DNA from: a virus
IMG/VR virus record: IMGVR_UViG_3300049629_001199
Span: 1 to 22,387 of that record
Reading direction: 5' to 3' (one strand)
Length of the DNA: 22,387 nt
Position numbers and translations under genes: made by a program. Below the pieces are notes generated by a model that ran no database searches, had not been told where the DNA came from, and saw only the letters and a list, made by a program, of their open reading frames with translations. Below, in pieces: positions 8,261-20,729 of this stretch (positions are counted from its first letter, which is position 1; every line of letters begins with the position of its first letter).

Positions 8261-8423
8261 CGATCAACAACAACTAACTCCAGAACAAGCACAAGCAATT
8301 TTATTATTTCAGATTGAGCAGAGAATAAGGTTTGCTATTGCAAAACAAGTTGAGAATAAATTTCACGGTATGTATCATAATGCGTCACACGATATAGCAC
8401 AGTTTATAAGAAATAGCGCTTAA
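8253..8423 (+). CDS. Small Gln-rich helical protein (56 aa)
   Basis: 56 residues: MDSDQQQLTPEQAQAILLFQ, then IEQRIRFAIAKQVENKFHGM and a short His-containing end. I use ATG 8253; an in-frame GTG at 8241 is possible. Its stop overlaps the stop of the convergent oxygenase gene. Function is unknown. Confidence 0.65.
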   Translation: MDSDQQQLTPEQAQAILLFQIEQRIRFAIAKQVENKFHGMYHNASHDIAQFIRNSA

Positions 8424-9010
8424 GGATAAGCAGATCCATCAGTTTTCTCAACATCACCAAATAACTCTGGGTTTAAGATAACTGGTTTGTCGACAGTTCC
8501 TCTAACAAACGAAGTAGAAAAATACCTATAGCCATCACTTGTAACTTCTGTGGTTCCATGTGGTATATTTCCACCATGCATAACTAAAGACCTGGCTTTT
8601 GGTTTGTGAGAAAAATCCAGGGATGGATAATGTATCTCTCCACCTAGATAATCGTCATTGTAATATATAACAATCCCATAACGAATATAGTAATCAATCT
8701 CTTTATTCCAATAGTCTTTATGTACTTCCATAAAGTTTCCACTTGGGTGTCTTTGCAACGAAACGTGATCAAAGTATAAAACATCGTCAAACAAGGTTTT
8801 TACTTTGTCGCTAATTTGATAAAAGACTGGTGGAAGTTCTCCTATTTTTTGCTTTCCAAAAAAGAAACCTTTTTCGTATTCTTCGTTATAAGATTTCCAC
8901 CATTCAGCCTCATCTAAGGTTTTGCAATAGTTCAAAACCTCTTCTTGCTCTTGGATACTTACAAAGTCTTCAATCTCGTAAATGTCGGGGGATAGAAGGT
9001 TAACCTTCAC
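8420..9010 (-). CDS. 2-oxoglutarate/Fe(II) oxygenase, prolyl-4-hydroxylase-like
   Basis: 196 residues with the double-stranded beta-helix motifs of the P4H-type family: FMEVHKDYW gives the HxD iron ligands (H97, D99), GGEIHYP (123-129) forms the core strand, H151 in IPHGTTEV is the third ligand, and R162 (YRYFST) fits the 2-oxoglutarate-binding position. Such enzymes hydroxylate Pro or other residues using O2 and 2-oxoglutarate. Start is a GTG at 9010, overlapping the upstream gene by 11 bases. It is relevant that collagen-like and Pro/Thr-rich fibre genes lie a few kilobases away. The actual substrate is unknown. Confidence 0.88.
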   Translation of the reverse strand: MKVNLLSPDIYEIEDFVSIQEQEEVLNYCKTLDEAEWWKSYNEEYEKGFFFGKQKIGELPPVFYQISDKVKTLFDDVLYFDHVSLQRHPSGNFMEVHKDYWNKEIDYYIRYGIVIYYNDDYLGGEIHYPSLDFSHKPKARSLVMHGGNIPHGTTEVTSDGYRYFSTSFVRGTVDKPVILNPELFGDVEKTDGSAYP

Positions 9011-9200
9011 TGGCTAATTCCCACATACGAATATCAACAAACCCATAACGAGATAGATCAGCCAACTCCTCAGTATCTGCTTCAATAACAAGTCTTACAT
9101 TTGACTCGACATCAAACCCTGGCTCGTACTCTTTTTGGGCATTTGCCAGATATGCTTCTTGAATCTTTTCTAAAATTGGTTTGTAATAAAACTTAGGCAA
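9000..9200 (-). CDS. Hypothetical protein (66 aa)
   Basis: 66 residues: MPKFYYKPILEKIQEAYLAN..., then FDVESNVRLVIEADTEELAD. The start is a TTG at 9200 with AGGTGG five bases upstream; no ATG is available. Overlaps both neighbours. It looks like a small alpha/beta protein; function unknown. Confidence 0.7.
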   Translation of the reverse strand: MPKFYYKPILEKIQEAYLANAQKEYEPGFDVESNVRLVIEADTEELADLSRYGFVDIRMWELASEG

Positions 9201-9378
9201 TTACGCCACCTGCTTTTAACTTGTCATAGATGTTTGACATCATAAAGCCAAGGCTTGGCTGTGATTGCTCAATTTGAGACTTTAGCGCTGTCTCATCTAG
9301 TCCAGCCTGGAGGCCTAATGCAAGATTATCTGCATTGATGCTTTCCATCATTATGTCTACTGCTTGTTCTTTTGTCAT
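9193..9378 (-). CDS. Hypothetical helical protein (61 aa)
   Basis: 61 residues: MTKEQAVDIMMESINADNLA..., ending YDKLKAGGVIA. I choose ATG 9378, which lies six bases after AGGA and overlaps the upstream stop as ATGA. The ATG at 9384 sits directly on the ribosome binding site. Pattern TKEQAVDIM resembles small phage helical proteins; function is unknown. Confidence 0.72.
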   Translation of the reverse strand: MTKEQAVDIMMESINADNLALGLQAGLDETALKSQIEQSQPSLGFMMSNIYDKLKAGGVIA

Positions 9379-10145
9379 ACCCATTCCTTTTCTTGGTCGT
9401 AAGTTACAGAGTACTCCCCTGTAAATATCTCTGCATAAGAGATGATATCTCTATTATACCTTATAAGGGTTTCTTTGCCAACTTTGTCACACAGGTACTT
9501 CCTACCATTGGTTAGTTCCTGGAACTTCATCCCCTGCCCTTCTAGGGCCTTATTAAGGGTATCCAAGTAACGTTCCTTGCCATAACGTTTTGACACAAAT
9601 GATTGATCAACATAATCAAACCTTGCTTGTGCATCATTCTTTCTTGCAATGTCCGAATTGTCTATTATGTACCTTGTTGCAAAATGATCCATCCGTGTAG
9701 ACCAGTTTCGCATGTTGTCGCTGTATTTCTCCATGTTCTTGAGAGTTGAGTCAGCGAAAGCCATGCGTATAAGGTCTTGTTCGGAGAGATCAGCCTCTAT
9801 TGCGAAACTTATCAAAAAAGCGGTTGCGAAAGGAAACTTGTCGCTATATGTCGAAACGCCAAAGTGAACATTTGGATTAAACGACTCGACAGACATATTA
9901 TCTTCCAAGAGTCGCATATGGTTTCCGAGAGATACAAACTCTTGTCGATTCATATCGCAGTCGACGAACAAACATTCTTCTGGATTGATCCCGTCGGCGA
10001 GACATAAAAGATTTTTATCGTACGAACCCACTATTTTCGAACCGTTAAAACGCTCTAGTAATTTTGCGGACATAAAACCATCCATGTCAGGGGATATAAT
10101 AAGATTCGTCGAATGCTCTAGTGTGTTAAGTATCTCTGTTTTCAT
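9375..10145 (-). CDS. Possible DHH-superfamily protein
   Basis: 256 residues. Near the N-terminus, NLIISPDMDGFMSAKLLE (about 15-32) resembles motif I of DHH phosphoesterases (DxDG followed by a helix), and CLFVDCDM followed by LGNHM could be degenerate motifs II and III. The usual HD and DHH signatures are incomplete, so catalysis is doubtful. Start at ATG 10145; AGGAG is 12 bases upstream, and a TTG at 10154 is the alternative. First gene of the leftward operon that ends with the oxygenase. A divergent promoter probably lies in the 35 bases before 10180. Confidence 0.45.
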   Translation of the reverse strand: MKTEILNTLEHSTNLIISPDMDGFMSAKLLERFNGSKIVGSYDKNLLCLADGINPEECLFVDCDMNRQEFVSLGNHMRLLEDNMSVESFNPNVHFGVSTYSDKFPFATAFLISFAIEADLSEQDLIRMAFADSTLKNMEKYSDNMRNWSTRMDHFATRYIIDNSDIARKNDAQARFDYVDQSFVSKRYGKERYLDTLNKALEGQGMKFQELTNGRKYLCDKVGKETLIRYNRDIISYAEIFTGEYSVTYDQEKEWV

Positions 10146-10164
10146 TTTATTCAAATACTCCTGT

Positions 10165-10170
10165 TATAAT
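10165..10170 (+). promoter_or_regulatory. Extended -10 TGT-TATAAT
   Basis: TATAAT nine bases before the ATG at 10180, with TGT extension. The transcript would have a leader of only a few bases. Confidence 0.6.
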
Positions 10171-10179
10171 AATATAGTT

Positions 10180-10449
10180 ATGACAATACAAGACTGGGCT
10201 TCCTTAATCGTAGCGATACTTACAATTGTATCATCAATCGCCTTTGCAATCAAGTGGATGGTAAAACATTATCTCAGCGAACTTAAGCCCAATTCTGGAT
10301 CATCGATGAAAGACCAAATGTCAAGATTAGAGTTGGCTGTTCAGGAACAAAAAATTAATTCCGAAGAATCACGAGATCGCCAAGAAAGAAAACTAGACGA
10401 ATTGTATAGAATTTTGCTTGAACATATTGCTAAAAATGACAAGAAGTAA
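10180..10449 (+). CDS. Small membrane protein with coiled coil (89 aa), holin-like shape
   Basis: 89 residues: MTIQDWASLIVAILTIVSSI starts a membrane segment (about 7-28). It is followed by a linker and a long charged coiled coil (about 48-85, with LELAVQEQKINSEESRDRQE) ending KNDKK. One membrane span plus a cytoplasmic coiled coil is common for phage holin-like or lysis accessory proteins, but no signature proves it. The lysozyme-like gene is 10 kb away. The start is ATG 10180, close behind TATAAT. Confidence 0.65.
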   Translation: MTIQDWASLIVAILTIVSSIAFAIKWMVKHYLSELKPNSGSSMKDQMSRLELAVQEQKINSEESRDRQERKLDELYRILLEHIAKNDKK

Positions 10450-10454
10450 TTAAA

Positions 10455-11126
10455 ATGATACCAAAGATTATTTGGCAAACTCACGAAAACAAATATAACG
10501 ATCTGTTACCATTTCAAAAAGACATTACAAACACTTGGAAAAATCTAAATCCAGGGTGGGAATATAGATATGTCGGAGCAGAAGAAAGATCTTTGGCAGT
10601 AAAAGAATATGATGAATTTTTACATAGTTATTATTTAGAGTCTGCTAAAACACACCAATCAGATATTTGGAGATTAGTTACAATTTATAATCACGGAGGA
10701 TTTTATTCCGATATGGATGCTGTATGTGTTAAAGGTATAGATGAAACATTATTAAATATTTATGACGGTAAAGACCTTGTATTTTCTCCAGAGGGATTTC
10801 AACATTCAGGTATAGGATCTTCAAATTTTGGCGCAGTAAAAAATAATAAAATTATTAAAGAAATGATAGATAAAATTATTTTAGAATATAGAAATACAGA
10901 CATAAAAGATATTCCAAATTTACCTTTTGCATCTTTAGAAAATAGAATTGTATCAGAAGTAGCAATGAAAAACAAGGAATTAATATTTTTTAATAATGAT
11001 TATTATAGTCACGCTGCTGAATACAAAACCTTGTTTAATAGTAATTTAGATGTTGTATTTAACAAAGAAAAAATTAATTATCACACACTTTGCATTAATA
11101 TGAATTGGCCTATATACTATATATAA
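10455..11126 (+). CDS. GT32-like glycosyltransferase with DXD motif
   Basis: 223 residues with the features of the DXD sugar-transferase family (Och1/GT32 type). The N-terminal strand is IPKIIWQTHE (2-11), NPGWEYRYV follows at about 32-40, and the donor-site block HQSDIWRLVTIYNHGGFYSD (67-86) runs into the DMD triad (86-88). Members transfer sugars from NDP donors. Length is normal for a minimal catalytic domain. The gene is especially AT-rich compared with its neighbours, which suggests separate acquisition. It is followed by a terminator at 11138-11163. The acceptor may be a virion protein, but this is inference. Confidence 0.85.
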   Translation: MIPKIIWQTHENKYNDLLPFQKDITNTWKNLNPGWEYRYVGAEERSLAVKEYDEFLHSYYLESAKTHQSDIWRLVTIYNHGGFYSDMDAVCVKGIDETLLNIYDGKDLVFSPEGFQHSGIGSSNFGAVKNNKIIKEMIDKIILEYRNTDIKDIPNLPFASLENRIVSEVAMKNKELIFFNNDYYSHAAEYKTLFNSNLDVVFNKEKINYHTLCINMNWPIYYI

Positions 11127-11137
11127 AGATAGTTTTT

Positions 11138-11163
11138 AAAACTATAAAGATAGTTCTTTTTTC
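11138..11163 (+). terminator. Terminator after the GT32-like gene
   Basis: AACTAT-AAAG-ATAGTT (11140-11155) followed by C and a run of T. A weaker overlapping hairpin (ATAGTTTT/AAAACTAT) lies just before it. Confidence 0.7.
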
Positions 11164-11287
11164 TTATATATTTAAAGTATACACTATCGCAATCCTGGCT
11201 AAAACAGACTTATGGTATCAAATCGGACATTCTTTATTATAACAATTTGATAACTTTAAATATCAATGTCCATTTTGTCTATTATGG

Positions 11288-11293
11288 TATAAT
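11288..11293 (+). promoter_or_regulatory. Extended -10 TGG-TATAAT without an ORF
   Basis: A perfect TATAAT with TGG extension whose expected start (about 11300) is three bases before a long stem that ends in a U tract. It could drive a short RNA. Confidence 0.55.
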
Positions 11294-11299
11294 TTTATT

Positions 11300-11355
11300 A
11301 CTGGCTAATACCTTGGTTTGTCCTATACCCACCAATCAAGGTATTAGTCTTTTTT
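11300..11355 (+). ncRNA. Candidate short hairpin RNA (about 55 nt)
   Basis: Predicted to start at A11300, seven bases after TATAAT. CTAATACCTTG (11305-11315) pairs perfectly with CAAGGTATTAG (11337-11347); a G-U and a G-C pair extend the stem outward, and six U follow. The loop (about 21 bases) contains UGUCCUAUACCCACC. No ORF fits. It may instead be only a terminator insulating the leaderless promoter that follows, since the T run merges into TATGGTATAAT. Confidence 0.4.
11305..11355 (+). terminator. Strong terminator before the tail module
   Basis: Eleven-pair stem plus T run, as described for the candidate RNA. The preceding gene already has its own terminator at 11138-11163, so this one is not needed for it. 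Confidence 0.8.
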
Positions 11356-11359
11356 ATGG

Positions 11360-11365
11360 TATAAT
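11360..11365 (+). promoter_or_regulatory. Leaderless-type promoter TGG-TATAAT
   Basis: TATAAT with TGG extension, then CACATT and ATG at 11372. The six-base gap puts the transcript start on the start codon. No ribosome binding site is present. Confidence 0.8.
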
Positions 11366-11371
11366 CACATT

Positions 11372-11752
11372 ATGACTATGCATGGACCAGAGGTTTTTGG
11401 AGCAGATCCAGCCAGAATTAAATGGCAAATTGTTAGAGGCGACACCTCCCCACTTCGTGTTGAATTTTTAGATGATGATGAAACCACATATTTTGATACC
11501 TCTGATTGGACGTATGAGGCTACTTCTTATGATCCTCAATCTGATGCTCTTGATTCCCTGGAAATTACACCTGGAGCAGGATATGTAGACATTATGGCAC
11601 CAGCATCAATTACAGAACTATGGGGTACTGGCTATAAAACAATAGTAACAGAACTAACCTTTGATCTACAGGTTACAATTGACTCAGACACAATCTGGAC
11701 TCCTCTGATTGGAACCATCTCAGTAATTGGCGATGTTACAGGTAGCCTATAA
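11372..11752 (+). CDS. Tail/baseplate-type protein, RGDT family (126 aa)
   Basis: 126 residues. IKWQIVRGDTSPLRVEFLDD (about 18-37) and the C-terminal WTPLIGTISVIGDVTG match the same regions in the 21371-21787 product (VVWTVVRGDTSGFKVYVTDD; VWTVCQGSMVILEDVTD) and, more loosely, the N-terminal half of the 12598-13353 product. This beta-sandwich pattern (W..xRGDT...V..DD, ending in G.i.i..dvT) resembles the N-terminal domain of phage baseplate upper proteins (BppU type). Probably a virion component linking fibres to the baseplate. Leaderless start. Confidence 0.65.
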   Translation: MTMHGPEVFGADPARIKWQIVRGDTSPLRVEFLDDDETTYFDTSDWTYEATSYDPQSDALDSLEITPGAGYVDIMAPASITELWGTGYKTIVTELTFDLQVTIDSDTIWTPLIGTISVIGDVTGSL

Positions 11753-11838
11753 TGGCAGTAGTAAAAATTACAACCCCTAGACCTGAGTTACCATCAGTGG
11801 TTAGAATTAAAAACAAAACTTTTAAAGTAAATAAATAA
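11752..11838 (+). CDS. Tiny basic protein (28 aa)
   Basis: 28 residues: MAVVKITTPRPELPSVVRIK then NKTFKVNK. It starts in a TAATG overlap with the RGDT-family gene. The same arrangement (RGDT gene, TAATG, small gene) occurs at 21371-22011, which supports it. Function is unknown. Confidence 0.5.
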   Translation: MAVVKITTPRPELPSVVRIKNKTFKVNK

Positions 11839-11846
11839 TCCCGTGA

Positions 11847-11852
11847 GATAAT
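11847..11852 (+). promoter_or_regulatory. Leaderless-type promoter TGA-GATAAT
   Basis: GATAAT with TGA extension, then GTCCTT and ATG 11859, again a six-base gap without ribosome binding site. Confidence 0.65.
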
Positions 11853-11858
11853 GTCCTT

Positions 11859-12590
11859 ATGGCTGCTTCTAAATCTATGGACTTCCCTGGTGCAAAAAAA
11901 TCTTCTTATGCTGCTCAAGTAGAGCAAAGTCAAATCTCTACATATCAAGAAAATACTCTTTCATTTCTACCAGTTCCTGGACCACAAGGTCCTCAAGGAC
12001 CAGCAGGAAGAGATGGTAAAGATGGATTGCCAGGTCCTATAGGTCCAGAAGGACAAAAGGGGCAAAAGGGAGAAAAGGGAGCAACTGGACAAAACGGGTT
12101 AAGTTCTTTATCTTCTTCAGGACAACAGGCTGGTTGGGCCTCATATGAAAACACTATTGACAAACCAATAAAACTTGGAATCTCTCAAGGCGATGATGGG
12201 TGGGTGACATTGTCATTAGACACAAAAGAAAAAACTCAGAATGAGACATACCTTCCAAAAGGATGTACCAGTCTTTGGAACAGCCACCAGCGAGCCCTAA
12301 ACTTTCATGGTATCAAAGAAGGATCCCAAGTATTTGTAACATATAACTTTGAACTAACGACATATACCGCTAATACAGAAGTTTGGCTAAGGACATATTT
12401 TGCAAGCAAAGACAAAGAGTTTGTCCAGTTGGTTGGGTCTTTTAAATATCAAAACGTTTATAACTTATCAGCAACACAGCAAATATTTATTGAAGATCAA
12501 GCCATGTGGGGCAATGGAGCAGTGCCTCAAATCAGAACAGACTTTGACTCATCCGTAATCCTCAATTCTGTCTACGTCAGCGTGGTATAA
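11859..12590 (+). CDS. Collagen-like tail fibre protein (243 aa)
   Basis: 243 residues. An N-terminal region (1-40) is followed by about 13 Gly-X-Y triplets (41-80: GPQGPQGPAGRDGKDG, GPEGQKGQKGEKG), then a C-terminal beta-rich domain (about 95-243) with the look of a trimeric fibre head. Collagen-like stretches trimerise phage fibres. Most prolines are in X position; GLP gives one Y-position Pro, the usual target of collagen prolyl hydroxylases. The stop codon is part of the next promoter (GTGGTATAAT). A P4H-like enzyme is encoded at 8420-9010. Confidence 0.85.
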   Translation: MAASKSMDFPGAKKSSYAAQVEQSQISTYQENTLSFLPVPGPQGPQGPAGRDGKDGLPGPIGPEGQKGQKGEKGATGQNGLSSLSSSGQQAGWASYENTIDKPIKLGISQGDDGWVTLSLDTKEKTQNETYLPKGCTSLWNSHQRALNFHGIKEGSQVFVTYNFELTTYTANTEVWLRTYFASKDKEFVQLVGSFKYQNVYNLSATQQIFIEDQAMWGNGAVPQIRTDFDSSVILNSVYVSVV

Positions 12591-12591
12591 T
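12586..12591 (+). promoter_or_regulatory. Leaderless-type promoter TGG-TATAAT inside a stop codon
   Basis: TATAAT (12586-12591) contains the TAA stop of the collagen-like gene. AAAACC and ATG 12598 follow. Confidence 0.8.
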
Positions 12592-12597
12592 AAAACC

Positions 12598-13353
12598 ATG
12601 GCATTTCCAGCGACCTATGACTTTAATTATTATAAGGGTGATACCTTTGAGTTTCGTATCTACCCGAAAAAGGACGACGGAACATCTCACCTTTTAGGTG
12701 CTTTTACAGTGCCAACAAATTTTGCAAATAGTCCAGACTATGCTTTGGACGTTTCAGCCCCATATGATAGCGCTCAGTTTACAATATCTACCGTTCGTGG
12801 ATCTGCAGGAACCCCAATTAAATGTTTTGCTAAAATATCAGATGACGGAACATTTGTTCAGTGTGCAATTAGACCGTCTGACTCAGTAGAACTAAATGCT
12901 GGAACAGAGTATGTCTATGACGTTGAGGTAAGGGCAGCAGAAGGAAATTACGAAAATCCTTTTTATGAAAAAGTATACACGCTGATGACAGGCAAGATAA
13001 CTATTACAGACCAAGTTACTGGAGCAAATCCAAATAACCGTCCAACACTTTCAAACTATAATATTAGAGGAGTCACAAAACCAGTTAAAGGAGCAACACC
13101 AGTTTCATCAGTATTTGAAACAGCAGAACATTCAGGAACAGTCTCCTGGTTTGAATCTAATGGAACAACTCCTTTGGTTGGAAATTTTGTTGCTTCAACA
13201 GTGTATCTTGCAAAAATTACAGTAAGTGCAAAGCAGCCATATTCTCTTATTGGAACTCCAGCAAATAAGTTTACAGTAGAACACGCAACACTTGTTACAA
13301 ATCCAATTGACTCAGGAATAGTTACTGCAGTATTCCCTGCAACAGGTGCTTAA
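12598..13353 (+). CDS. Two-domain tail/baseplate protein (251 aa)
   Basis: 251 residues. The N-terminal half (about 1-145) has FNYYKGDTFEFRIYPKKDDG and ends with VYTLMTGKITITDQVTG, matching the start and end of the RGDT-family proteins at 11372 and 21371 (BppU-like). The C-terminal half (about 150-251; FETAEHSGTVSWFES..., ASTVYLAKITVSA) looks like an Ig-like or bacterial-surface beta domain. Likely a virion structural protein. Leaderless start. Confidence 0.65.
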   Translation: MAFPATYDFNYYKGDTFEFRIYPKKDDGTSHLLGAFTVPTNFANSPDYALDVSAPYDSAQFTISTVRGSAGTPIKCFAKISDDGTFVQCAIRPSDSVELNAGTEYVYDVEVRAAEGNYENPFYEKVYTLMTGKITITDQVTGANPNNRPTLSNYNIRGVTKPVKGATPVSSVFETAEHSGTVSWFESNGTTPLVGNFVASTVYLAKITVSAKQPYSLIGTPANKFTVEHATLVTNPIDSGIVTAVFPATGA

Positions 13354-13355
13354 TA

Positions 13356-13955
13356 ATGGCAGACATACTATTATCAAATGATGATATGGCGGTCTTTGGT
13401 GGGCCAGCAGAAATAAAACTTGATTTAGATTTTGGACCACCAGGTGACCGTGGAAGTATTATTGTTGGCGTTCAGGGAGATCCAAGAAACGCTAGTGTAG
13501 CAAATTTAATTGCTCAAGATGTTCAAGCATTAGACCTTGCTGTTGATTATAGTCCAAGTTCAGATACATACAGAACAGTTTTTCAATATATCTCCACTCC
13601 ATCAGGTACTCCTCAGTGGACTCCTCTTGTTAGTTTAAAAACAGATTTTTACTCAGATATAAAAGGTCCTTTTAGTCCAGTAAATGGAAAGATAACAATT
13701 CCACCAATCAATGTTACAGATATCTATGCTTTATCAGATGGGACTGTGAGTTCTTCCAGATTCAGCATTCAGTACTCAATATCTTCGTCAGAAACATCTG
13801 GACCACTAGCAACAAACCTTATAGTAAAAGACTTAATAACAACACAGGGATTCTTAGCACTACCACTTGAAATAAAGGGAGTAGAATATGTAGATGGAGT
13901 CTGGTCAGATATGACTGGGCCTAAACTTGTCCACCTATTTATTACGGTGGTATAA
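13356..13955 (+). CDS. Tail protein (199 aa)
   Basis: 199 residues: MADILLSNDDMAVFGGPAEI, LDLDFGPPGDRGSIIVGVQG, then a beta-rich, Ser/Thr-rich body (SRFSIQYSISSSETSG). The GPPGDRGS short collagen-like motif and location suggest a fibre component. Start is ATG 13356 two bases after the preceding stop, without ribosome binding site, so re-initiation is likely. Its stop lies in the GTGGTATAAT promoter. Confidence 0.6.
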   Translation: MADILLSNDDMAVFGGPAEIKLDLDFGPPGDRGSIIVGVQGDPRNASVANLIAQDVQALDLAVDYSPSSDTYRTVFQYISTPSGTPQWTPLVSLKTDFYSDIKGPFSPVNGKITIPPINVTDIYALSDGTVSSSRFSIQYSISSSETSGPLATNLIVKDLITTQGFLALPLEIKGVEYVDGVWSDMTGPKLVHLFITVV

Positions 13956-13956
13956 T
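13951..13956 (+). promoter_or_regulatory. TGG-TATAAT promoter overlapping a stop codon
   Basis: TATAAT overlaps the TAA at 13953-13955. The start would be near 13963, giving a short leader with AAGGGTGA before the GTG start at 13975, so this one is not leaderless. Confidence 0.7.
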
Positions 13957-13974
13957 GAAAAAGGGTGATCTATA

Positions 13975-16686
13975 GTGGCAGCAGAAAATATTGACAATAC
14001 CGTTAATGGTACTGGACTATTTAATGCCAAAATCCCAGGTCTTGGAGATGCAGCCGATATTCAGGCAGCGCTCAGACTATATCACTATGGATCCTATACT
14101 TATGATGGCGCAAATACAACACCATCAAACCTTGTATCCCCTTCAATAGCAAAACACCTTCAAAACCTTGTAGATGCCGACGCAGCAGAAATAGTAAATA
14201 GAGATGCAGCCATCGCAGCACACAATGCAGCCACAATAAATGTTCACGGAATAGCAAACACAGCCCTTCTTGCAACAAAAGCATATGTTGATTCTGGAAT
14301 AGATAACTCTACCGTAAATCAGTCAACGCTTGCAGGAGTTGGAATTGACTGGAACTCAGGAACATTCCAATTTGATCTTGAGCCAAGCATTTCAAATACC
14401 TCAACAGTTATTACAAAAAATTCTAGTTTTACATTAGAGTTGGCAGATGTTAGCAAGACTATTCTTTTGTCAACATCTTCACCAATGAATTTAACTATCC
14501 CGCTAAATTCTTCAGTTGCAATTCCAGTTGGATATCAATATCATTTTATTGAATTTGGTTCAGAAAAAACAACTTTTGTTCCAGCATCTGGTGTGACTAT
14601 TAATAGTAAAAATTCACAATTATTCTTAGATGGAAGATATAGCAAGGGAACTTTAATAAAAGTTGCAACAGATAGTTGGGTTTTGTATGGAGATATATAT
14701 GAAGGTGTTGCTGTAGCAACTACTACAACCGCAGCACCGACAACCACTACAACTACTACAGCAGCGCCAGCCACTACAACTACTACAGCAGCGCCAGGAA
14801 CTACATCTTCAACACCAGCACCAGCCACTACAACTACTACAACAACAGTCGCACCAGGAACTACATCTTCAACACCAGCAACAACTACAACCACGACTGC
14901 AGCAACAACAACTACAACTACGACTGTAGCGCCAGTAATTACACCAACAATTAGTTCTTTCTCTGCTCAGTGTGAAAACCCTGACGTAGGAGGATGTACC
15001 GATACACAAACACAACAGGCTATCTGGACAATATTTAACTATTCAAATGCATCATCTTATCAAATAACTGCGTCTCCTTCAACTGCTAATGGAAGCACTT
15101 ATACAAGTAATGCTAACTCAGATACTGACGCATACCTTGGAATGGCAAACAAGGGAACAACTTATACTTTAACATTAACTGTTTATGCTTCTGACAATCA
15201 ACAAGGAGCATCTGCTTCTTCAACAATAAGTTACACTGTTCCTTCAGGTGTCACTACAAGTACAACCACGACTACAACAACAACTGCTGCACCAACAAGT
15301 GGATATTTTGCCTCATTCTGTTCTAATGGAATTGCAATGACAGACGGAGGATCTCAGTATACATCCGTTGGAGCACTTGAAGCATGGATAAATGGTAATT
15401 ATGAAAATGTAAGTAATGTTACTTACCAGCAAGGATCTGCTCCTGCACTACCAACTGGATGTGCTGGAACAACTACAACCACTACAACTACTCCAGCACC
15501 AACAGGAACAACTTATTATGCTTGCTGTACTAATGGAGCAGGAGTCAGTGGAACTTACGCTAACAGTAGTGCTGCAGTAACAGGTCTAAACGCTGCATGT
15601 GATGCAGATGAGCCAGGAATAGGAAATACTACACAGGGTGGGGTTTCTACAACACCAACTGGATGTAATCCTACTACAACTACTACAACAACAGTCGCAC
15701 CAGGAACTACATCTTCAACACCAGCAACAACTACAACCACGACCGCAGCAACAACAACTACAACTACCGTAGCACCAGTAACATCAGGAGTCTGGTACAC
15801 ATATTGTGGCAGCGTAAGCGCAGGTTATAGTCCTGGAACAGTTGTCGGACCACTGTTTGAAGCAGGAACAACGTGTAGTGCGATATTTAATGAAATGACA
15901 TCTATGGGAGAAATTGGTTCAGGATGGAACTGTGCAGCAGGAACATCAAATACACCTTCTGTTTCACCAGCAAGTTGTGGAGTAACTACTGCAACAACTA
16001 CTACGACTGCAGCACCAACAACTACAACAACAACGACAGCAGCAACTACGACTGCAGCATCAACTTCGCCAGCACCAACAACTACTACGACCCCAGCACC
16101 AACAACTACAACAACTACGACAGCAGCAACTGGATGGTTTGCTTCATTCTGTACAAACGGAGTTGCAATATCAGACGGAGGATCTTCCTTTACAACTCAA
16201 TCATCACTTGCTAATTGGATAAGTGGAAATTATGATGGCGTAAGCAATATTACTTATCAACAAGGGTCTGCACCAGCATTGCCAAATTGTACAACTACAA
16301 CTGCAGCACCTCCATTCTTCCCATATTTTGCTCCTGCAACAACTACGACTGCAGCAACTACGACCCCAGCACCAACCACAACAACGACTGCAGCAACTAC
16401 GACCCCAGCACCAACCACAACAACGACTGCAGCAACTACAACTGCAGCACCAACAACTACTACGACCGCAGCAACTACAACCGCAGCCACAACTGCAGCA
16501 ACCACAACTGCAGCCACAACTGCAGCAACCACAACTGCAGCACCAACATCTGGGGTAACCTGTACATCGTTTGACGTATCTATTGGATGTTGTGCTTCTA
16601 CTGGATGTAGTACTGGCTGTGGAAGCGGAGCAAGTTGTTCAAACCCACCATTTGATAGGTGTTTCGGAGGAGGATACAATTGTTAA
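13975..16686 (+). CDS. Mucin-like Thr/Ala/Pro-rich fibre protein (903 aa)
   Basis: GTG start. N-terminal part (1-247) resembles a phage fibre: an early segment DIQAALRLYHYGSYTYDG, Ala-rich helices (about 60-105) and a beta domain. Then Thr/Ala/Pro linkers (TTTTTAAP, TTSSTPAP; first at about 248-321) alternate with compact modules: a Cys-containing fibronectin-like domain (about 322-423), FASFC module A (about 443-498), an ACC...C module, a WYTYC...C module, FASFC module B (about 722-771), a long final linker and a Cys-rich tail with eight Cys in about 42 residues. A beads-on-a-string adhesin; the linkers are ideal O-glycosylation substrates. The reverse strand shows long Val-rich frames that are shadows. 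Confidence 0.85.
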   Translation: MAAENIDNTVNGTGLFNAKIPGLGDAADIQAALRLYHYGSYTYDGANTTPSNLVSPSIAKHLQNLVDADAAEIVNRDAAIAAHNAATINVHGIANTALLATKAYVDSGIDNSTVNQSTLAGVGIDWNSGTFQFDLEPSISNTSTVITKNSSFTLELADVSKTILLSTSSPMNLTIPLNSSVAIPVGYQYHFIEFGSEKTTFVPASGVTINSKNSQLFLDGRYSKGTLIKVATDSWVLYGDIYEGVAVATTTTAAPTTTTTTTAAPATTTTTAAPGTTSSTPAPATTTTTTTVAPGTTSSTPATTTTTTAATTTTTTTVAPVITPTISSFSAQCENPDVGGCTDTQTQQAIWTIFNYSNASSYQITASPSTANGSTYTSNANSDTDAYLGMANKGTTYTLTLTVYASDNQQGASASSTISYTVPSGVTTSTTTTTTTTAAPTSGYFASFCSNGIAMTDGGSQYTSVGALEAWINGNYENVSNVTYQQGSAPALPTGCAGTTTTTTTTPAPTGTTYYACCTNGAGVSGTYANSSAAVTGLNAACDADEPGIGNTTQGGVSTTPTGCNPTTTTTTTVAPGTTSSTPATTTTTTAATTTTTTVAPVTSGVWYTYCGSVSAGYSPGTVVGPLFEAGTTCSAIFNEMTSMGEIGSGWNCAAGTSNTPSVSPASCGVTTATTTTTAAPTTTTTTTAATTTAASTSPAPTTTTTPAPTTTTTTTAATGWFASFCTNGVAISDGGSSFTTQSSLANWISGNYDGVSNITYQQGSAPALPNCTTTTAAPPFFPYFAPATTTTAATTTPAPTTTTTAATTTPAPTTTTTAATTTAAPTTTTTAATTTAATTAATTTAATTAATTTAAPTSGVTCTSFDVSIGCCASTGCSTGCGSGASCSNPPFDRCFGGGYNC
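14827..14921 (+). repeat. 95-bp direct repeat, copy 1
   Basis: Encodes a Thr-rich linker with VAPGTTSSTPA. Matches 15673-15767 at all but one base. Confidence 0.85.
15673..15767 (+). repeat. 95-bp direct repeat, copy 2
   Basis: Second copy of the linker repeat 846 bases downstream, differing at one silent position. In-frame recombination between copies would delete two modules. Confidence 0.85.
16351..16428 (+). repeat. 39-bp tandem repeat, two exact units
   Basis: Units 16351-16389 and 16390-16428 are identical and each encodes 13 residues (AATTTPAPTTTTT). Diverged related units follow to about 16545. Multiples of three, so copy-number change keeps the frame. Confidence 0.85.
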
Positions 16687-17096
16687 CAGATATAGATATA
16701 CAGTTTGTTAGAGGAAACGACGGTATAAATGGAGTACCGTTAGTTTGGGTAATTGATGGACAATGCATATATGATATACCAACATGGAACGAATATAAAG
16801 AAATGTTTATGTCTAGCAATACAGTAATTGATGTATCTCAAAGTTATCCAAATCATGACGGGATAACAGTTAGATTTATTAAAGATGGATCAATGATCAA
16901 TGAATTACAAACTTCTGAATATTTTGGAAGCGTCTTATTAAGCAATCCATTAGTTCTTGATTTAAGAGACTACCCATATGGAAGATATGTTCAATCTCCA
17001 AATGCCACTTTTGACGGAGAAAAATTTACTATAACGAATAGAGACATGGCAGATTTAATTCCTTGGGCTCCAACACAGCCACAATACACTGAGTGA
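16680..17096 (+). CDS. Hypothetical tail-associated protein (138 aa)
   Basis: 138 residues from a TTG at 16680, which has a strong GGAGGAGGA site eight bases upstream; the start overlaps the stop of the mucin-like gene by seven bases. Sequence: DIQFVRGNDGINGVPLVWVI, DIPTWNEYKEMF, later VLDLRDYPYGRYV. Beta-rich, no family recognised. Coupled translation with the fibre suggests an accessory or chaperone for it, or a minor fibre part. Confidence 0.7.
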   Translation: MLTDIDIQFVRGNDGINGVPLVWVIDGQCIYDIPTWNEYKEMFMSSNTVIDVSQSYPNHDGITVRFIKDGSMINELQTSEYFGSVLLSNPLVLDLRDYPYGRYVQSPNATFDGEKFTITNRDMADLIPWAPTQPQYTE

Positions 17097-17103
17097 TATC
17101 GTG

Positions 17104-17109
17104 TATAAT
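17104..17109 (+). promoter_or_regulatory. TATAAT promoter for the zinc-ribbon/radical SAM genes
   Basis: TATAAT preceded directly by TG. A leader of about 20 bases carries AGGGAG (17126-17131) before ATG 17137. Confidence 0.65.
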
Positions 17110-17136
17110 AGAATAACAACTATTTAGGGAGAACAA

Positions 17137-17367
17137 ATGTCAAAGTCAGCATGGGAAAAATATAAAGAAAAAAATGGAGTAACTCCATTAGACTTACTAA
17201 ACCCAATGACAAAACATGCTGCCGATGATTTAGCAGCATCAAGAATGTCAATATGTAGAGCATGCCCAGAGTTAATTTCTTTAACCTCTCAATGCAAAAA
17301 GTGTGGATGCATTATGTCTATAAAAACTAAACTTGAAGCAGCCAAGTGTCCAATAGGTAAGTGGTAA
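17137..17367 (+). CDS. Zinc-ribbon-like phage protein (76 aa)
   Basis: 76 residues. Cysteines at 40, 43, 53, 56, 58 and 71 in ICRACPEL...CKKCGC...AKCPIGKW form a small Cys-rich fold. I associate this pattern (CPEL, CKKCGCxM, KTKL, CPxGKW) with small conserved phage proteins of unknown function. It immediately precedes the radical SAM gene with a one-base gap, and could serve it as a metal or carrier partner, though that is inference. Confidence 0.8.
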   Translation: MSKSAWEKYKEKNGVTPLDLLNPMTKHAADDLAASRMSICRACPELISLTSQCKKCGCIMSIKTKLEAAKCPIGKW

Positions 17368-17368
17368 T

Positions 17369-18373
17369 ATGAAATATCAATACAAAATATCAATGGCACA
17401 AATTGACCCCAATGGTCTTTGTAATGTAGGCTGTTGGTTTTGTCCAGTAAGATATGCAGAAAATCCTTTGGCACAAAGAACAAATATGCCAATTGAAACC
17501 TTTGAAAGCATTATTAATCAACTTGTTGCAGGTAAAGGCACGTTTGTTTCTGATAATTTTGATTTTATATATACGGCACACTACAACGAAGTTCTTCTTT
17601 ATAAGTACTTTCCAGAAATGCTAGAGGTTTTAAGAAAAAACAAGATAAGAACCATTGTGTTAACTAATGGAACGCCACTAACTAAAGCAAGAACTGACCT
17701 TATTAGAGAATATCAAGATGTTGTTCATGGTATTTGTTTTAATATTCCTGCATCAGATCCAGAAGAATGGGCAAAAGCAACAGGAAAACCCGTAAAAATG
17801 TTTGATAAATTAATAGAGCAGGTGACATATGCGGTAGAGCAGTTGCCAGATATGGTAACAAGCAAAGCCATGTCAATACAAGTAAACGGTATTAATAAAA
17901 ATTCTCTTGTAGAGTATGGTGGTTGGATTCAACAGTTAAAAAATGCTCCAGAAATGGACATAGATCTTGAAACTGGATTACTTGCAAGAATGACAAATGG
18001 TTGGAGAGAAAAGTTTCCTGGACTACAAGTATACGAAATGCCATACCTTGTAGATAGAAATGGTCACTTAGATACTCATCAAATTATTACAAATAAGGCT
18101 GCTATTGAGAGCAAAGAGAAAAAAGGCAAGGAAAGAGTAGTTGGTTGTGGTAACGGAAGAGAAGTAGGTGGCAGACCAAATGGATGGCTACACGTTGCTG
18201 CTAATGGAGACACCTTTATTTGTTGTAATGACTACGATTTTGAAACGGTATTTGGAAATATAAACGATAAGCCAATTAGCGATATATGGATGAGCATTGA
18301 GCATAAGTTAATGACAGTTAAGTCATTTGAAAACTTCTGCAGAACATGCGTTCATGCGATTTGGGGTGACTAA
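17369..18373 (+). CDS. Radical SAM protein with SPASM-like C-terminus
   Basis: 334 residues. The N-terminal CNVGCWFC (C18, C22, C25) is the CxxxCxxC ligand set for the 4Fe-4S cluster that cleaves S-adenosylmethionine. TIVLTNGTPL (about 94-103) fits the core barrel. The C-terminal region has GCGNGREVGGRPNGWLHVAA, then DTFICCNDYD and FCRTC. These resemble the SPASM auxiliary-cluster domain found in peptide- and protein-modifying members. TAATG overlap with the GT60-like gene places both in one operon. Substrate is unknown; a fibre peptide or a sugar is possible. Confidence 0.88.
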   Translation: MKYQYKISMAQIDPNGLCNVGCWFCPVRYAENPLAQRTNMPIETFESIINQLVAGKGTFVSDNFDFIYTAHYNEVLLYKYFPEMLEVLRKNKIRTIVLTNGTPLTKARTDLIREYQDVVHGICFNIPASDPEEWAKATGKPVKMFDKLIEQVTYAVEQLPDMVTSKAMSIQVNGINKNSLVEYGGWIQQLKNAPEMDIDLETGLLARMTNGWREKFPGLQVYEMPYLVDRNGHLDTHQIITNKAAIESKEKKGKERVVGCGNGREVGGRPNGWLHVAANGDTFICCNDYDFETVFGNINDKPISDIWMSIEHKLMTVKSFENFCRTCVHAIWGD

Positions 18374-19290
18374 TGGCCAGCATATTTGTTCAGATAGCAG
18401 CATATAGAGATTTAGAGGTAACCCCTACAATTCTAGATGCAATAAAGCAGTCATCTGGGAACCACACAATTAATTTTGGTGTTCACACAGTTTATGTAGA
18501 TGAATCAGAGATTAATGTTCCTGATTTGCCTAATGTTAAGCATGCTGAAAGCAAGGCTCCAGAAAATATTGGTTTGGGAATCGGAAGAGCCCTTGCTCAT
18601 CAATTTTATGATGGCGAAGATTATTATCTTCAATGCGACTCACATTCTAGATTTATTAGTGGTTGGGACGAAGTTGCCATAAACTCGGTTTTAAATTATC
18701 AAATTCAGGGAATTCACAAACCACTTCTTACAATGTACCCAGCAAATTACTGGTATCCATCTGCAACCGCTAAGTTTGTAGAAAAAGATTTTCTACCACC
18801 TGGCCACTTATCTAATATCTCATTTCATGAAAAGCCAGATCAGTTTAGGCTAACAAGAATTCCACAACAAACAGCAATGCCGATCCTCGATGGAAATAGA
18901 TTTGTAAAGTCAGTATCTGGAGGATCAATATTTACTGTTAAAGGATTTTTACCTTTCAACACAGACATTGCATTTTACGGAGAAGAAATATGGTTGGCAG
19001 CAAGGGCCTACACGCATGGGTATGACATATTAGTTCCTGATGAGCAGTATATGTATCATCTTTACTATAATCACAACATTGCAGGTGAAATAAATAAGAG
19101 AAAGATTCTTTGGACAGACTACCCTGATGAATTTAACCGTTTAGATTTAGTATCTAAACAATTAATCTATAAAACTTTAACAGAAGGAACAGTTGGAGAT
19201 ATGTTGCTTGGAAATGAAAGAACTCTTCTAGAATATGGAACATTTGCTGGGCTTGATTTTATAAATGGTGAAATAGTTGAAAACTGCTAG
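18373..19290 (+). CDS. GT60-type GlcNAc-transferase-like protein
   Basis: 305 residues. Matches the pattern of the family that includes the Dictyostelium Skp1 hydroxyproline GlcNAc-transferase: ASIFVQIAAYRDLEVTPTIL (2-21), GEDYYLQCDSHSRFISGWDE (81-100, with D89/H91 as the DxH metal site), LLTMYPANYW (about 118-127), and FYGEEIWLAARAYTHGYDI (201-219). The last holds the paired Glu and THGYD typical of the family. C-terminal His residues at 229 and 234 may also bind metal. It is predicted to transfer a sugar, probably GlcNAc, to protein hydroxyls. Neighbours: radical SAM gene (overlap) and epimerase (14-base overlap). Confidence 0.85.
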   Translation: MASIFVQIAAYRDLEVTPTILDAIKQSSGNHTINFGVHTVYVDESEINVPDLPNVKHAESKAPENIGLGIGRALAHQFYDGEDYYLQCDSHSRFISGWDEVAINSVLNYQIQGIHKPLLTMYPANYWYPSATAKFVEKDFLPPGHLSNISFHEKPDQFRLTRIPQQTAMPILDGNRFVKSVSGGSIFTVKGFLPFNTDIAFYGEEIWLAARAYTHGYDILVPDEQYMYHLYYNHNIAGEINKRKILWTDYPDEFNRLDLVSKQLIYKTLTEGTVGDMLLGNERTLLEYGTFAGLDFINGEIVENC

Positions 19291-20077
19291 CGTAGTTTTG
19301 ACTGGATCATTTGGTTATGTTGGATCAGCAACAAAAGAACTTTTAATAAAAAATGGATATAACGTTATAGAGTTTGATAAAAAAAATAACAATGACACAA
19401 GAAACATATTTAAACTATTTTGTTTGTCTTTAAAAAAACCAAAAGCAATAATTCACCTGTCTGCTAAAAAATCAATTACAGAGTCTGTAAAAAACCCTAT
19501 TCTTTATTATTTAAACAATATAGGATCTACCTTGTCTGTTGCTTTAGTTTCTAAGGTTTTAAATATACCAGTTATATTTGCATCCTCTGCAGCAATATAT
19601 AATCCATACAACCCATATGCCAAATCAAAACTTTTAGAAGAAAAAATATTAAAAATTTTATGTAAAAAACTTGTTATTTTAAGATATTTTAACATTGTTG
19701 GAAAATCTGACAAAATAAAGGATGAGCAAGGTGGAAACATATTTTCAATAATTAGTAAAAATCCAAATATAAACATTAATAGCGTTTCTTCAACAAGAGA
19801 CTATGTCCATATTTTAGATATAGCAAAAGCCAATGTACTATCTATTGAGTATCTTAAGGATAACGACTTTTTGCTTACAGATATTTTTACTGGAAACCAG
19901 TTTACTATGATTGATCTGGTAAACGAGTATAAGGCTAATGGTGTTACTATTACTTATACCGTTTTAAATTTGCCAGACCTAACAGTTCTATCAGAAATAG
20001 ATAACAGAGATCTTCTTGGCTGGTTCCCTTCTTACACTTTCTCAGATGGGGTTAAGTCAGAAGTTAATTTTAGATAA
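19277..20077 (+). CDS. NAD-dependent sugar epimerase, GalE-like
   Basis: 266 residues. Extended SDR features: TGSFGYVG (9-16) nucleotide loop, SSAAIY (103-108), YAKSK catalytic YxxxK (Y114, K118), LRYFNIVG (135-142) and RDYVHILD (174-181). These match UDP-glucose/UDP-GlcNAc 4-epimerases, although the protein is about 70 residues shorter than GalE. The TTG start at 19277 is needed to include the first strand and overlaps the GT60-like gene. Likely supplies an NDP-sugar donor. Very AT-rich, as is the GT32-like gene. Followed by a terminator. Confidence 0.87.
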   Translation: MKTASVVLTGSFGYVGSATKELLIKNGYNVIEFDKKNNNDTRNIFKLFCLSLKKPKAIIHLSAKKSITESVKNPILYYLNNIGSTLSVALVSKVLNIPVIFASSAAIYNPYNPYAKSKLLEEKILKILCKKLVILRYFNIVGKSDKIKDEQGGNIFSIISKNPNININSVSSTRDYVHILDIAKANVLSIEYLKDNDFLLTDIFTGNQFTMIDLVNEYKANGVTITYTVLNLPDLTVLSEIDNRDLLGWFPSYTFSDGVKSEVNFR

Positions 20078-20124: not shown

Positions 20125-20688
20125 TTATTTAGGAAATTTATTCATCCACATTCTGGTCTTTGGAGTAATGCCCTTCCAAGAAGACCAATCTTCTCCACCA
20201 TTTGTCATGTAGTATGCAATCTCTGCATTCTTGACGGGGTTGAAGAGTTCGGCATTAGAGTCAAGATCAAACTTAGTCCTACGATCAGGACCAAGGGTAT
20301 CAATCATATTGATTTGGAACATTCCATAAGATGAATCACCAGTCTTGTGGTTGCCATTAAAAGCCAGTGGTCGCCCATTAGACTCCTTTTTAGCAACTGC
20401 CCAAGCAACTACAAGGTCTTTACCCTTGAATCCTACTAGCGAAAGCAGTTCCTTTAGTTCTAAATCAGTCAGAGAAACCTTGTTCTCAAAACTCTCTAGT
20501 TTTTTTGCTTTAGAAACCAAAAAAACCTCTTTCGAGGCGGTTTCCGATGTCTGAGCCTGTTCTATGCTCAAGTTGTTTTTAGTATCAAGACCCGAATCAG
20601 CATTGGCTCCGTTCGACAAAACAGTTACTAATGCTACGATACTGAGTGTGCTAATGATCTCTTTGTTTCTTTCGATAAATTTAATCAT
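20125..20688 (-). CDS. Secreted lysozyme/SLT-type transglycosylase-like protein (187 aa)
   Basis: 187 residues. A signal-peptide-like N-terminus (IISTLSIVALVTVLSNGANA, 11-30) with a possible cleavage after ANA. A Ser/Lys-rich linker follows, then a goose-lysozyme/SLT-like fold: AWAVAKKESNGRPLAF with the expected catalytic E102, SSYGMFQINM (119-128), NPVKNAEIA (150-158) and a Trp pair in EDWSSW. It probably cuts peptidoglycan after export. Start ATG 20688 with perfect AAGGAGGAAACT. It is alone on the minus strand in a rightward region, with its own promoter, so it is separately regulated. It could serve lysis or entry, or be a cargo gene. Confidence 0.82.
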   Translation of the reverse strand: MIKFIERNKEIISTLSIVALVTVLSNGANADSGLDTKNNLSIEQAQTSETASKEVFLVSKAKKLESFENKVSLTDLELKELLSLVGFKGKDLVVAWAVAKKESNGRPLAFNGNHKTGDSSYGMFQINMIDTLGPDRRTKFDLDSNAELFNPVKNAEIAYYMTNGGEDWSSWKGITPKTRMWMNKFPK

Positions 20689-20709
20689 AGTTTCCTCCTT
20701 AGAAAACAA

Positions 20710-20729
20710 TAACACCTTGGTAGGTGTTA
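20710..20729 (-). promoter_or_regulatory. 5' stem-loop in the lysozyme leader
   Basis: TAACACC and GGTGTTA pair around loop TACCAA at the very 5' end of the predicted transcript. It may protect the mRNA or act as an early attenuator; a competing GGTAG/CTACC pairing depends on the exact start. Confidence 0.5.

Follow-up and report, generated by a model that had tools for sequence, protein, structure and literature searches.

The 22,387-nucleotide stretch analysed here (the window) is the entire virus record IMGVR_UViG_3300049629_001199 and encodes a threonine-rich fibre protein followed by a cassette of genes for putative modifying enzymes, among them a glycosyltransferase (GT) of family GT60 (Table 1). 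The record is probably a fragment of a larger genome: window bases 84-22387 have a counterpart of 99.85-100% DNA identity in a record of 118,084 bp (locus L005, handle G001). Since the terminase of this longer record aligns along its entire length, at 55% identity, with those of Streptomyces phages of ~131 kb, and part of residues 1-245 of the fibre (e.g., 144-241) can be aligned with Gordonia phage proteins annotated as minor tail proteins, the window phage is, as judged by these similarities, an actinophage-like virus. A host lookup in genome contigs with the lysozyme-like SLT protein found no relative, and annotated phage genomes gave no match to the full window in megablast or to its GT60 in tblastn. 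Gene calls are simple open reading frames (ORFs), and all genes named in the original prediction for this DNA are present as ORFs where it had placed them.

The fibre ORF was confirmed, including its predicted richness in Thr, Ala and Pro, with Thr accounting for ~26% of its residues. Ten tracts, with linkers of the TTTTTAAPTTT type, comprise 253 residues in total, of which 161 are Thr and 25 are Pro. Each of the four Thr codons is used for the tract threonines (66/63/17/15); the second codon position hardly varies and the third is free, which indicates that what is maintained is the protein sequence of the repeat. In the 118,084-bp relative, a Thr tract contains a 13-residue in-frame insertion after fibre residue 823. 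The mixed codons and this in-frame difference fit a protein-level repeat that changes its length fast.

The assignment of the GT60 gene was borne out by profile search (PF11397, GlcNAc, with a score far over the cut-off of 21 bits), so that family membership is firm; the GT60 proteins of two relatives scored 126.7 (L177) and 131.9 bits (L190). Candidate active-site residues D89, H91, W98, D99, E204, and E205 are invariant in a comparison within 26 relatives. A sequence search of the PDB returned no match for either single-protein query, the GT60 among them, nor for the GT60 profile. The radical SAM/SPASM protein possesses both of the expected Pfam domains. In the case of the GalE-like epimerase, membership of the Epimerase family was upheld, but its best NCBIfam match, galE, reached 99.7 bits, below the cut-off of 262. 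The cassette of the window contains no oxygenase.

Table 1. Features of the window and of the second fibre region, with Pfam scores
Feature	Coordinates	Strand	Remarks
Prolyl-4-hydroxylase-like oxygenase	8420..9010	-	no link to GT60 or collagen
GT32-like DXD glycosyltransferase	10455..11126	+	PF04488 48.2 bits (cut-off 23); sporadic, no link to GT60
Collagen-like protein, conserved backbone gene	11859..12590	+	Collagen 31.9 bits (cut-off 27.2)
903-aa fibre, predicted acceptor	13975..16686	+	N-terminal part resembling tail proteins, followed by Cys-containing domains with Thr/Ala/Pro linkers between them
Small protein o16659, between fibre and cassette	16659..17096	+	in 7/14 poly-Thr loci
Small Cys-rich protein, between fibre and enzymes	17137..17367	+	DUF6171 23.2 bits, below cut-off 27
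Radical SAM/SPASM protein	17369..18373	+	Radical_SAM 39.0 and SPASM 35.8 bits, both over cut-off
GT60-type glycosyltransferase, predicted first-sugar adder on linker Thr	18373..19290	+	PF11397 110.4 bits
GalE-like epimerase, possible sugar-nucleotide supply	19277..20077	+	Epimerase 79.9 bits
Lysozyme-like SLT gene, bounds variable cassette	20125..20715	-	used as neutral anchor
Second fibre region in the 118-kb record	L231:9373-10746 and L231:1864-8791	-	Phe-Pro tract fibre, P4H-like genes behind

Linker repeats and enzyme sets in related loci

Relatives were collected in four scans, two selected on the window GT60 and on the window prolyl 4-hydroxylase (P4H)-like gene and two neutral ones, SLT (best 80 of 592 relatives) and COLL (best 80 of 162). 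Of 222 loci with matches, 148 contained fibre and SLT genes; these gave 137 fibre-to-SLT segments and 74 non-redundant loci. The order of genes is largely kept (collagen-like gene, two genes, fibre, small Cys-rich protein, cassette, SLT), and the cassette varies. The fibres have long linkers, mostly of one main type each, which a k-mer rule sorted into the classes VAPTP (20 loci), PTPT (19), poly-Thr (14), VTP (12), SFTP (4), and none (5). Six of the 14 poly-Thr loci contain a member returned by a neutral scan.

Cassette families were named by the Pfam matches of one representative each. The epimerase, GT60, sulfotransferase, FkbM methyltransferase, and nucleotidyltransferase families lie over the Pfam cut-offs. 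The cassette P4H family, with 67.7 bits for the 2-oxoglutarate (2OG) oxygenase family 2OG-FeII_Oxy_3, retains H129, D131, and H182 in 43/43 sequences and R192 in 42/43. Members of the cupin family (23-25 bits, below cut-off) occur with or without GT61 (46.0 bits). Below their cut-offs are the O-FucT-like c7 (13.8 bits), the GT11-like c15, and the GT-like c26 and c27; c11 and c13 have no Pfam family. Family c5 has no Pfam name over cut-off, but all 27 sequences compared share H93, D95, and H139, and its model (mean predicted local distance difference test score, pLDDT, 93.1) was matched best in Foldseek by Fe(II)/2OG oxygenases, with mimivirus lysyl hydroxylase and PHD2 among them; c5 is thus a predicted second 2OG oxygenase.

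The distribution of these families follows the linker repeats. A GT60 at least 55% identical to that of the window is encoded in all 14 poly-Thr loci and in none of the 60 others; both this threshold and the repeat classes were fixed after looking at the data. Identities range from 57 to 100% in poly-Thr loci and do not exceed 46% in the others. GT60 proteins of lower identity occur in 11/19 PTPT, 4/20 VAPTP, and 2/5 unclassed loci, and in no other class. The cupin was found in 11/12 VTP loci (2/62 elsewhere), GT61 in 5/12 VTP loci (0/62 elsewhere), and c5 in 19/20 VAPTP loci. In L185 (L185:6620-8236), GT61 and cupin domains are joined in one polypeptide, and the fibres concerned have VTP repeats. 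The cassette P4H is present in 15/19 PTPT, 11/12 VTP, 8/20 VAPTP, 5/14 poly-Thr, 0/4 SFTP, and 2/5 unclassed loci. Taken together, a cassette oxygenase (P4H, c5, or cupin) accompanies 49/51 Pro-repeat loci vs. 5/18 poly-Thr or SFTP loci; with the cupin left out the former count is 48/51, L223 alone relying on the cupin only. Nine of the 14 poly-Thr cassettes, that of the window included, are oxygenase-free. Oxygenases would be expected to follow Pro-repeats and not poly-Thr because Thr already carries a hydroxyl and Pro does not.

Fisher values for such counts assume independent loci, and these loci are related. On an SLT tree (a quick tree, with 24 of 71 inner branches open), independent pairs link poly-Thr with GT60 (7/7, p 0.016), VAPTP with c5 (~7.8 of 11, median p 0.008), and VAPTP with c7 (~6.0 of 11, p 0.03); the values for poly-Thr with the radical SAM gene were ~3.6 of 7 (p 0.125) and for PTPT with c15 p 0.5. 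In nearest-neighbour prediction of the linker class of 59 loci (chance ~23%), the enzyme set was right in 50.7, vs. 29 for the fibre N-terminus, 28.5 for the small protein, and 29.2 (protein) or 28.7 (DNA) for SLT; excluding neighbours more than 98% identical reduced the count for the fibre N-terminus to 25 and that for the small protein to 20.5. Enzymes and linkers were also compared, given SLT and the globular fibre parts, in a partial Mantel test that does not use the classes; for the 68 loci with an enzyme it yielded r 0.50 (0/999 permutations).

Since the classes and the threshold had been set after looking, predictions for further loci were written down before these were scanned. Two SLT anchors were added because the planned anchor returned 10 loci only, and the fibre rule was slightly changed, in that a plus-strand ORF with at least 30 residues of a class repeat was also counted. 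Of 82 new loci, 32 lacked a fibre or SLT gene and six more a usable segment; among the 44 segments, 21 were redundant with the old set and three with each other, which left 20. In these, the close GT60 was found in 2/2 poly-Thr loci and 0/18 others, the cupin in 5/5 VTP loci and 2/15 others, and an oxygenase in 17/17 Pro-repeat loci (16/17 without the cupin) and 0/3 poly-Thr or SFTP loci.

The 118-kb record also encodes a second fibre, which contains a long FFPPFFPFFP tract. Seven of the eight ORFs tested behind it belong to 2OG-FeII_Oxy_3 over cut-off, and one is DUF6065. A scan with the N-terminal part of this fibre gave the best 80 loci, of which 73 contained the fibre ORF, 53 of them with 7 kb of downstream sequence and 34 non-redundant. 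Four to eight P4H-like genes lie within 7 kb in 29/29 loci with at least 10 PFFP/PYFP words and in 0/5 of the others, of which three have SFTP-like repeats and two have 7-8 PFFP words, the cut at nine repeats having been chosen after the counts were known. The profile used was seeded with the seven genes of that genome and 15 cassette P4Hs, and matched none of 1,571 reversed ORFs. One of the P4H-free loci, L310, has two P4H-like genes further on, and among the loci left out for short downstream sequence was L291, where a fibre of the SFTP type is accompanied by one P4H-like gene.

Two neighbours of the GT60 show distributions of their own. The radical SAM gene was found in 10/14 poly-Thr, 3/19 PTPT, and 0/41 other loci, and in 2/2 new poly-Thr loci; among the 74 loci it is confined to GT60-bearing cassettes (13/13). 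The small Cys-rich protein, present in 63/74 loci, is fused to GT60 in L113 (L113:11377-12579) and L190 (L190:7607-8794), the latter fusion matching DUF6171 at 21.6 bits, below the Pfam cut-off. Possibly, this protein is an adaptor or a metal-binding partner. It matches 78 annotated phage records and has relatives in cyanophages and Stenotrophomonas phages; in the two regions inspected (Yut2 and S-IOM18, the latter starting in a fiber gene) no such cassette is annotated.

Explanations of the covariation

The earlier proposal that the phage modifies its own fibres is supported by the way in which linker type and enzymes change together among loci, which carries much more weight than the closeness of genes in a single window. 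This covariation suggests that phages of this kind chemically decorate their fibres. We consider it likely that the genes between the fibre and SLT form an exchangeable cassette that modifies the linkers of the adjacent fibre, each cassette being matched to its linkers, and that the window GT60 adds N-acetylhexosamine (HexNAc) to the Thr of the tracts. The enzyme would transfer the sugar (alpha-N-acetylglucosamine by family precedent) directly to Thr of the TTTTTAAP tracts, post-translationally and inside the infected cell; the epimerase may supply or alter the donor sugar, and the radical SAM protein would have an accessory role. In relatives with Pro-Thr linkers, hydroxylation by the cassette P4H, the predicted oxygenase c5, or the cupin would come first, and many of these phages would then glycosylate. 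Such a two-step sequence is plausible in those relatives, as opposed to the window, because a cassette P4H paralogue adjoins GT60 there (e.g., L177). The benefit may be a stiff, protease-resistant, glycan-coated fibre, perhaps with altered interaction with receptors or defences.

Several results weigh against this interpretation. Family c5 also occurs in 11/54 loci outside the VAPTP class, and in the new loci its association with VAPTP was weakly supported (6/7 vs. 4/13 elsewhere, p 0.057). P4H is present in five poly-Thr loci, and the two oxygenase-free Pro-repeat loci (PTPT with GT60) are L113 and L190, those with the Cys-rich protein/GT60 fusions. Seven of 56 oxygenase-bearing loci (six VTP, one PTPT) have no GT-like family at all, in a count that included unconfirmed families such as c11 and c13. 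Independent pairs gave p 0.0625 for VTP with the cupin (~4.6 of 6), p 0.22 for PTPT with the distant GT60, and p 0.25 for PTPT with P4H. Prediction of the linker class from the enzyme set falls to 42.2/59 without identical enzyme sets, to 43.7/59 with GT60 unsplit, and to 32.4 when both apply; with GT60 unsplit the Mantel correlation is r 0.38. Enzymes also correlate, more weakly, with the globular fibre parts given SLT and linkers (r 0.20, 0/999). Finally, the neighbour of the distant GT60 in jumbo phage XacN1 is a carbamoyl transferase, and the 15 kb inspected there include no gene annotated as a fibre. XacN1 is not the only annotated phage with this protein: the GT60 of L177 matches three of 50,697 annotated phage records, and the RAS14 region contains hypothetical proteins only.

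Some cassettes may only hydroxylate. The six VTP loci mentioned above encode the cupin with P4H and no recognised GT, so that hydroxylation alone may be the modification there. SFTP-like fibres without a cassette oxygenase were seen in L108, L098, L114, L068, and L381 (first fibre) and in L253, L254, and L271 (second fibre); they may represent an unmodified state or use host enzymes.

The cassette enzymes could instead modify the host surface, for instance to exclude competing phages, with fibre and cassette covarying as both are tuned to the host. This matches the published reading of GTs of aquatic phages (PMC7029224, where they are placed in a host recognition cluster; PMC10202952, as one of two roles), and a host-tuned fibre and a host-surface enzyme could indeed covary. 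However, the covariation is stronger with the linker repeats than with the globular parts, and the P4H-like and 2OG oxygenases go with Pro linkers, as the P4H-like arrays go with FFP fibres. Prolyl hydroxylases act on peptides. We regard modification of the host surface as unlikely.

An inheritance of the 3' part of the fibre and the cassette as a single recombining block, with no functional matching, appears rather improbable. The two are adjacent, linker type correlates with SLT and with the globular parts, and loci of one linker class tend somewhat to group on the SLT tree (34 changes vs. a shuffled mean of 44.1, 0/200 as low). An intervening gene, o16659, also associates with poly-Thr, although independent pairs do not retain this (p 0.5). 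Against such a block, the genes c16, c17, c18, c19, and c22, located between fibre and enzymes, do not follow linker class (the observed value was attained in 398-1888 of 2000 permutations), and the class is predicted less well from the fibre N-terminus or from the small protein in between than from the enzymes.

The original prediction tentatively raised a pathway of the Skp1 type in the window, in which the oxygenase encoded at 8420-9010 would hydroxylate fibre Pro and GT60 would glycosylate the hydroxyproline. The resemblance of this oxygenase to P4H is credible from its model: while its Pfam score (2OG-FeII_Oxy_3, 23.9 bits) is below the cut-off of 27, the AlphaFold2 model (pLDDT 87.8) matched P4H chains at all Foldseek ranks from 1 to 16 (best E 5.6e-9). 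These chains represent two proteins, a P4H from a bacterium and one from a chlorella virus; from rank 17 on, the matches are other 2OG oxygenases. H97, D99, H151, and R162 (HxD...H and a basic residue) are invariant in 24 orthologues, the profile of which reaches solved P4H chains at E ~0.001. The GT60 family includes the Skp1 enzyme, and the tracts hold 25 Pro. The gene, found in 19 of the 44 non-redundant loci that could be assessed, does not follow GT60, however: among the 26 loci with a classed cassette it occurs in 5/11 with GT60 and 5/15 without. In the relatives surveyed, GT60 was paired with poly-Thr fibres, but no association of this P4H with GT60 was found. Together with the absence of oxygenases from most poly-Thr cassettes and a matched acceptor that is Thr, this speaks against the proposed pair, and we hold a Skp1-type pathway in the window to be quite improbable. 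A tie of the same gene to collagen was also rejected, a Gly-X-Y run of at least six being present in all 44 loci, so that collagen could not discriminate. The GT32-like and collagen-like assignments were both sustained by their profiles; a tie of GT32 to GT60 was rejected (3/23 loci with GT60, 5/30 without).

2OG oxygenases and GTs can modify DNA. That they modify phage DNA bases here is scarcely credible: the window oxygenase matches Tet_JBP weakly (16.9 bits, cut-off 34.9) and the distant GT60 of XacN1 lies near DNA polymerase and carbamoyl transferase genes, but the cassette adjoins the fibre and covaries with its linkers, and the two described GT60 enzymes act on proteins (PMC6939170).

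Relation to known systems and significance

The two proteins just mentioned, the Skp1 hydroxyproline enzyme and the Trypanosoma cruzi mucin enzyme, offer two models for the window. The T. cruzi enzyme was assayed on the poly-Thr acceptor KPPTTTTTTTTKPP (PMC3769586), which the phage linker TTTTTAAPTTT resembles. Since the matched acceptor of the phage is poly-Thr, the better model is that of T. cruzi, and direct O-glycosylation of fibre Thr, not a hydroxyproline pathway, is the most likely function by this analogy. The protozoan protein is a Golgi enzyme acting on surface mucins; the phage enzyme, of predicted activity, is presumably cytoplasmic, with a tail fibre as acceptor. The Skp1 system (PhyA and Gnt1, the latter of GT60) is paralleled by the adjacent P4H-like and GT60 genes of relatives with Pro-Thr linkers, although it concerns a single Pro of a regulatory protein and the phages have repeated linkers.

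Other systems share parts of this arrangement. Mycobacteriophages Che8 and Rita encode GTs and their virion proteins carry glycans, as recounted in PMC11256854; those are capsid proteins, unlike the tail-fibre linkers, GT60 enzyme, and repeat-matched enzyme sets described here. Mimivirus hydroxylates and glycosylates its own collagen with virus-encoded enzymes (L230, prolyl hydroxylase; PMC9546862), and thus also modifies a repeat protein of its own, but in a giant virus and on Lys and Pro of collagen instead of Thr/Pro linkers served by exchangeable phage cassettes. In plant arabinogalactan proteins, Ala-, Ser-, and Thr-hydroxyproline dipeptide repeats carry glycans (PMC7769824); the phage APTP/PTPT linkers, accompanied by P4H and predicted to be hydroxylated, are similar in their repeats, plant arabinogalactan-protein glycosyltransferases being outside the comparison.

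In annotated phages, the cassette P4H matches 413 records, mostly of cyanophages (26-32% identity among the matches listed). In Synechococcus phage S-SCSM2R (L315, 222010-236579), a radical SAM gene is grouped with several 2OG oxygenase and GT genes; no fibre is annotated in the stretch inspected. As the host strain of this phage is named, it is a possible cultivable system for similar chemistry.

We are evenly balanced on a broader proposal, namely, a repeat-matched code of fibre modification in which swappable hydroxylase/GT cassettes serve each linker (poly-Thr, PTPT, VTP, VAPTP) and a P4H-like array serves the Phe-Pro second fibre, with linkers and enzymes that evolve together and are exchanged as the defences of the host change. 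It would be the counterpart, in viruses of prokaryotes, of hydroxyproline-rich glycoproteins and mucins. Among the matches listed in open-licence literature, at the level of titles and abstract starts, no phage system with fibre linkers matched to modifying enzymes was found. While the GTs of freshwater actinophages (PMC10202952) and pelagiphages (PMC7029224) are read in these papers as directed to DNA or the host surface, the enzymes described here follow the linker repeats of the fibre itself. If the proposed function is true, a hypervariable phage region gains a concrete role, GT and hydroxylase specificities would be predictable from the neighbouring repeat, and the cassettes would provide natural enzyme/substrate pairs for making mucin-like or hydroxyproline-containing proteins in bacteria.

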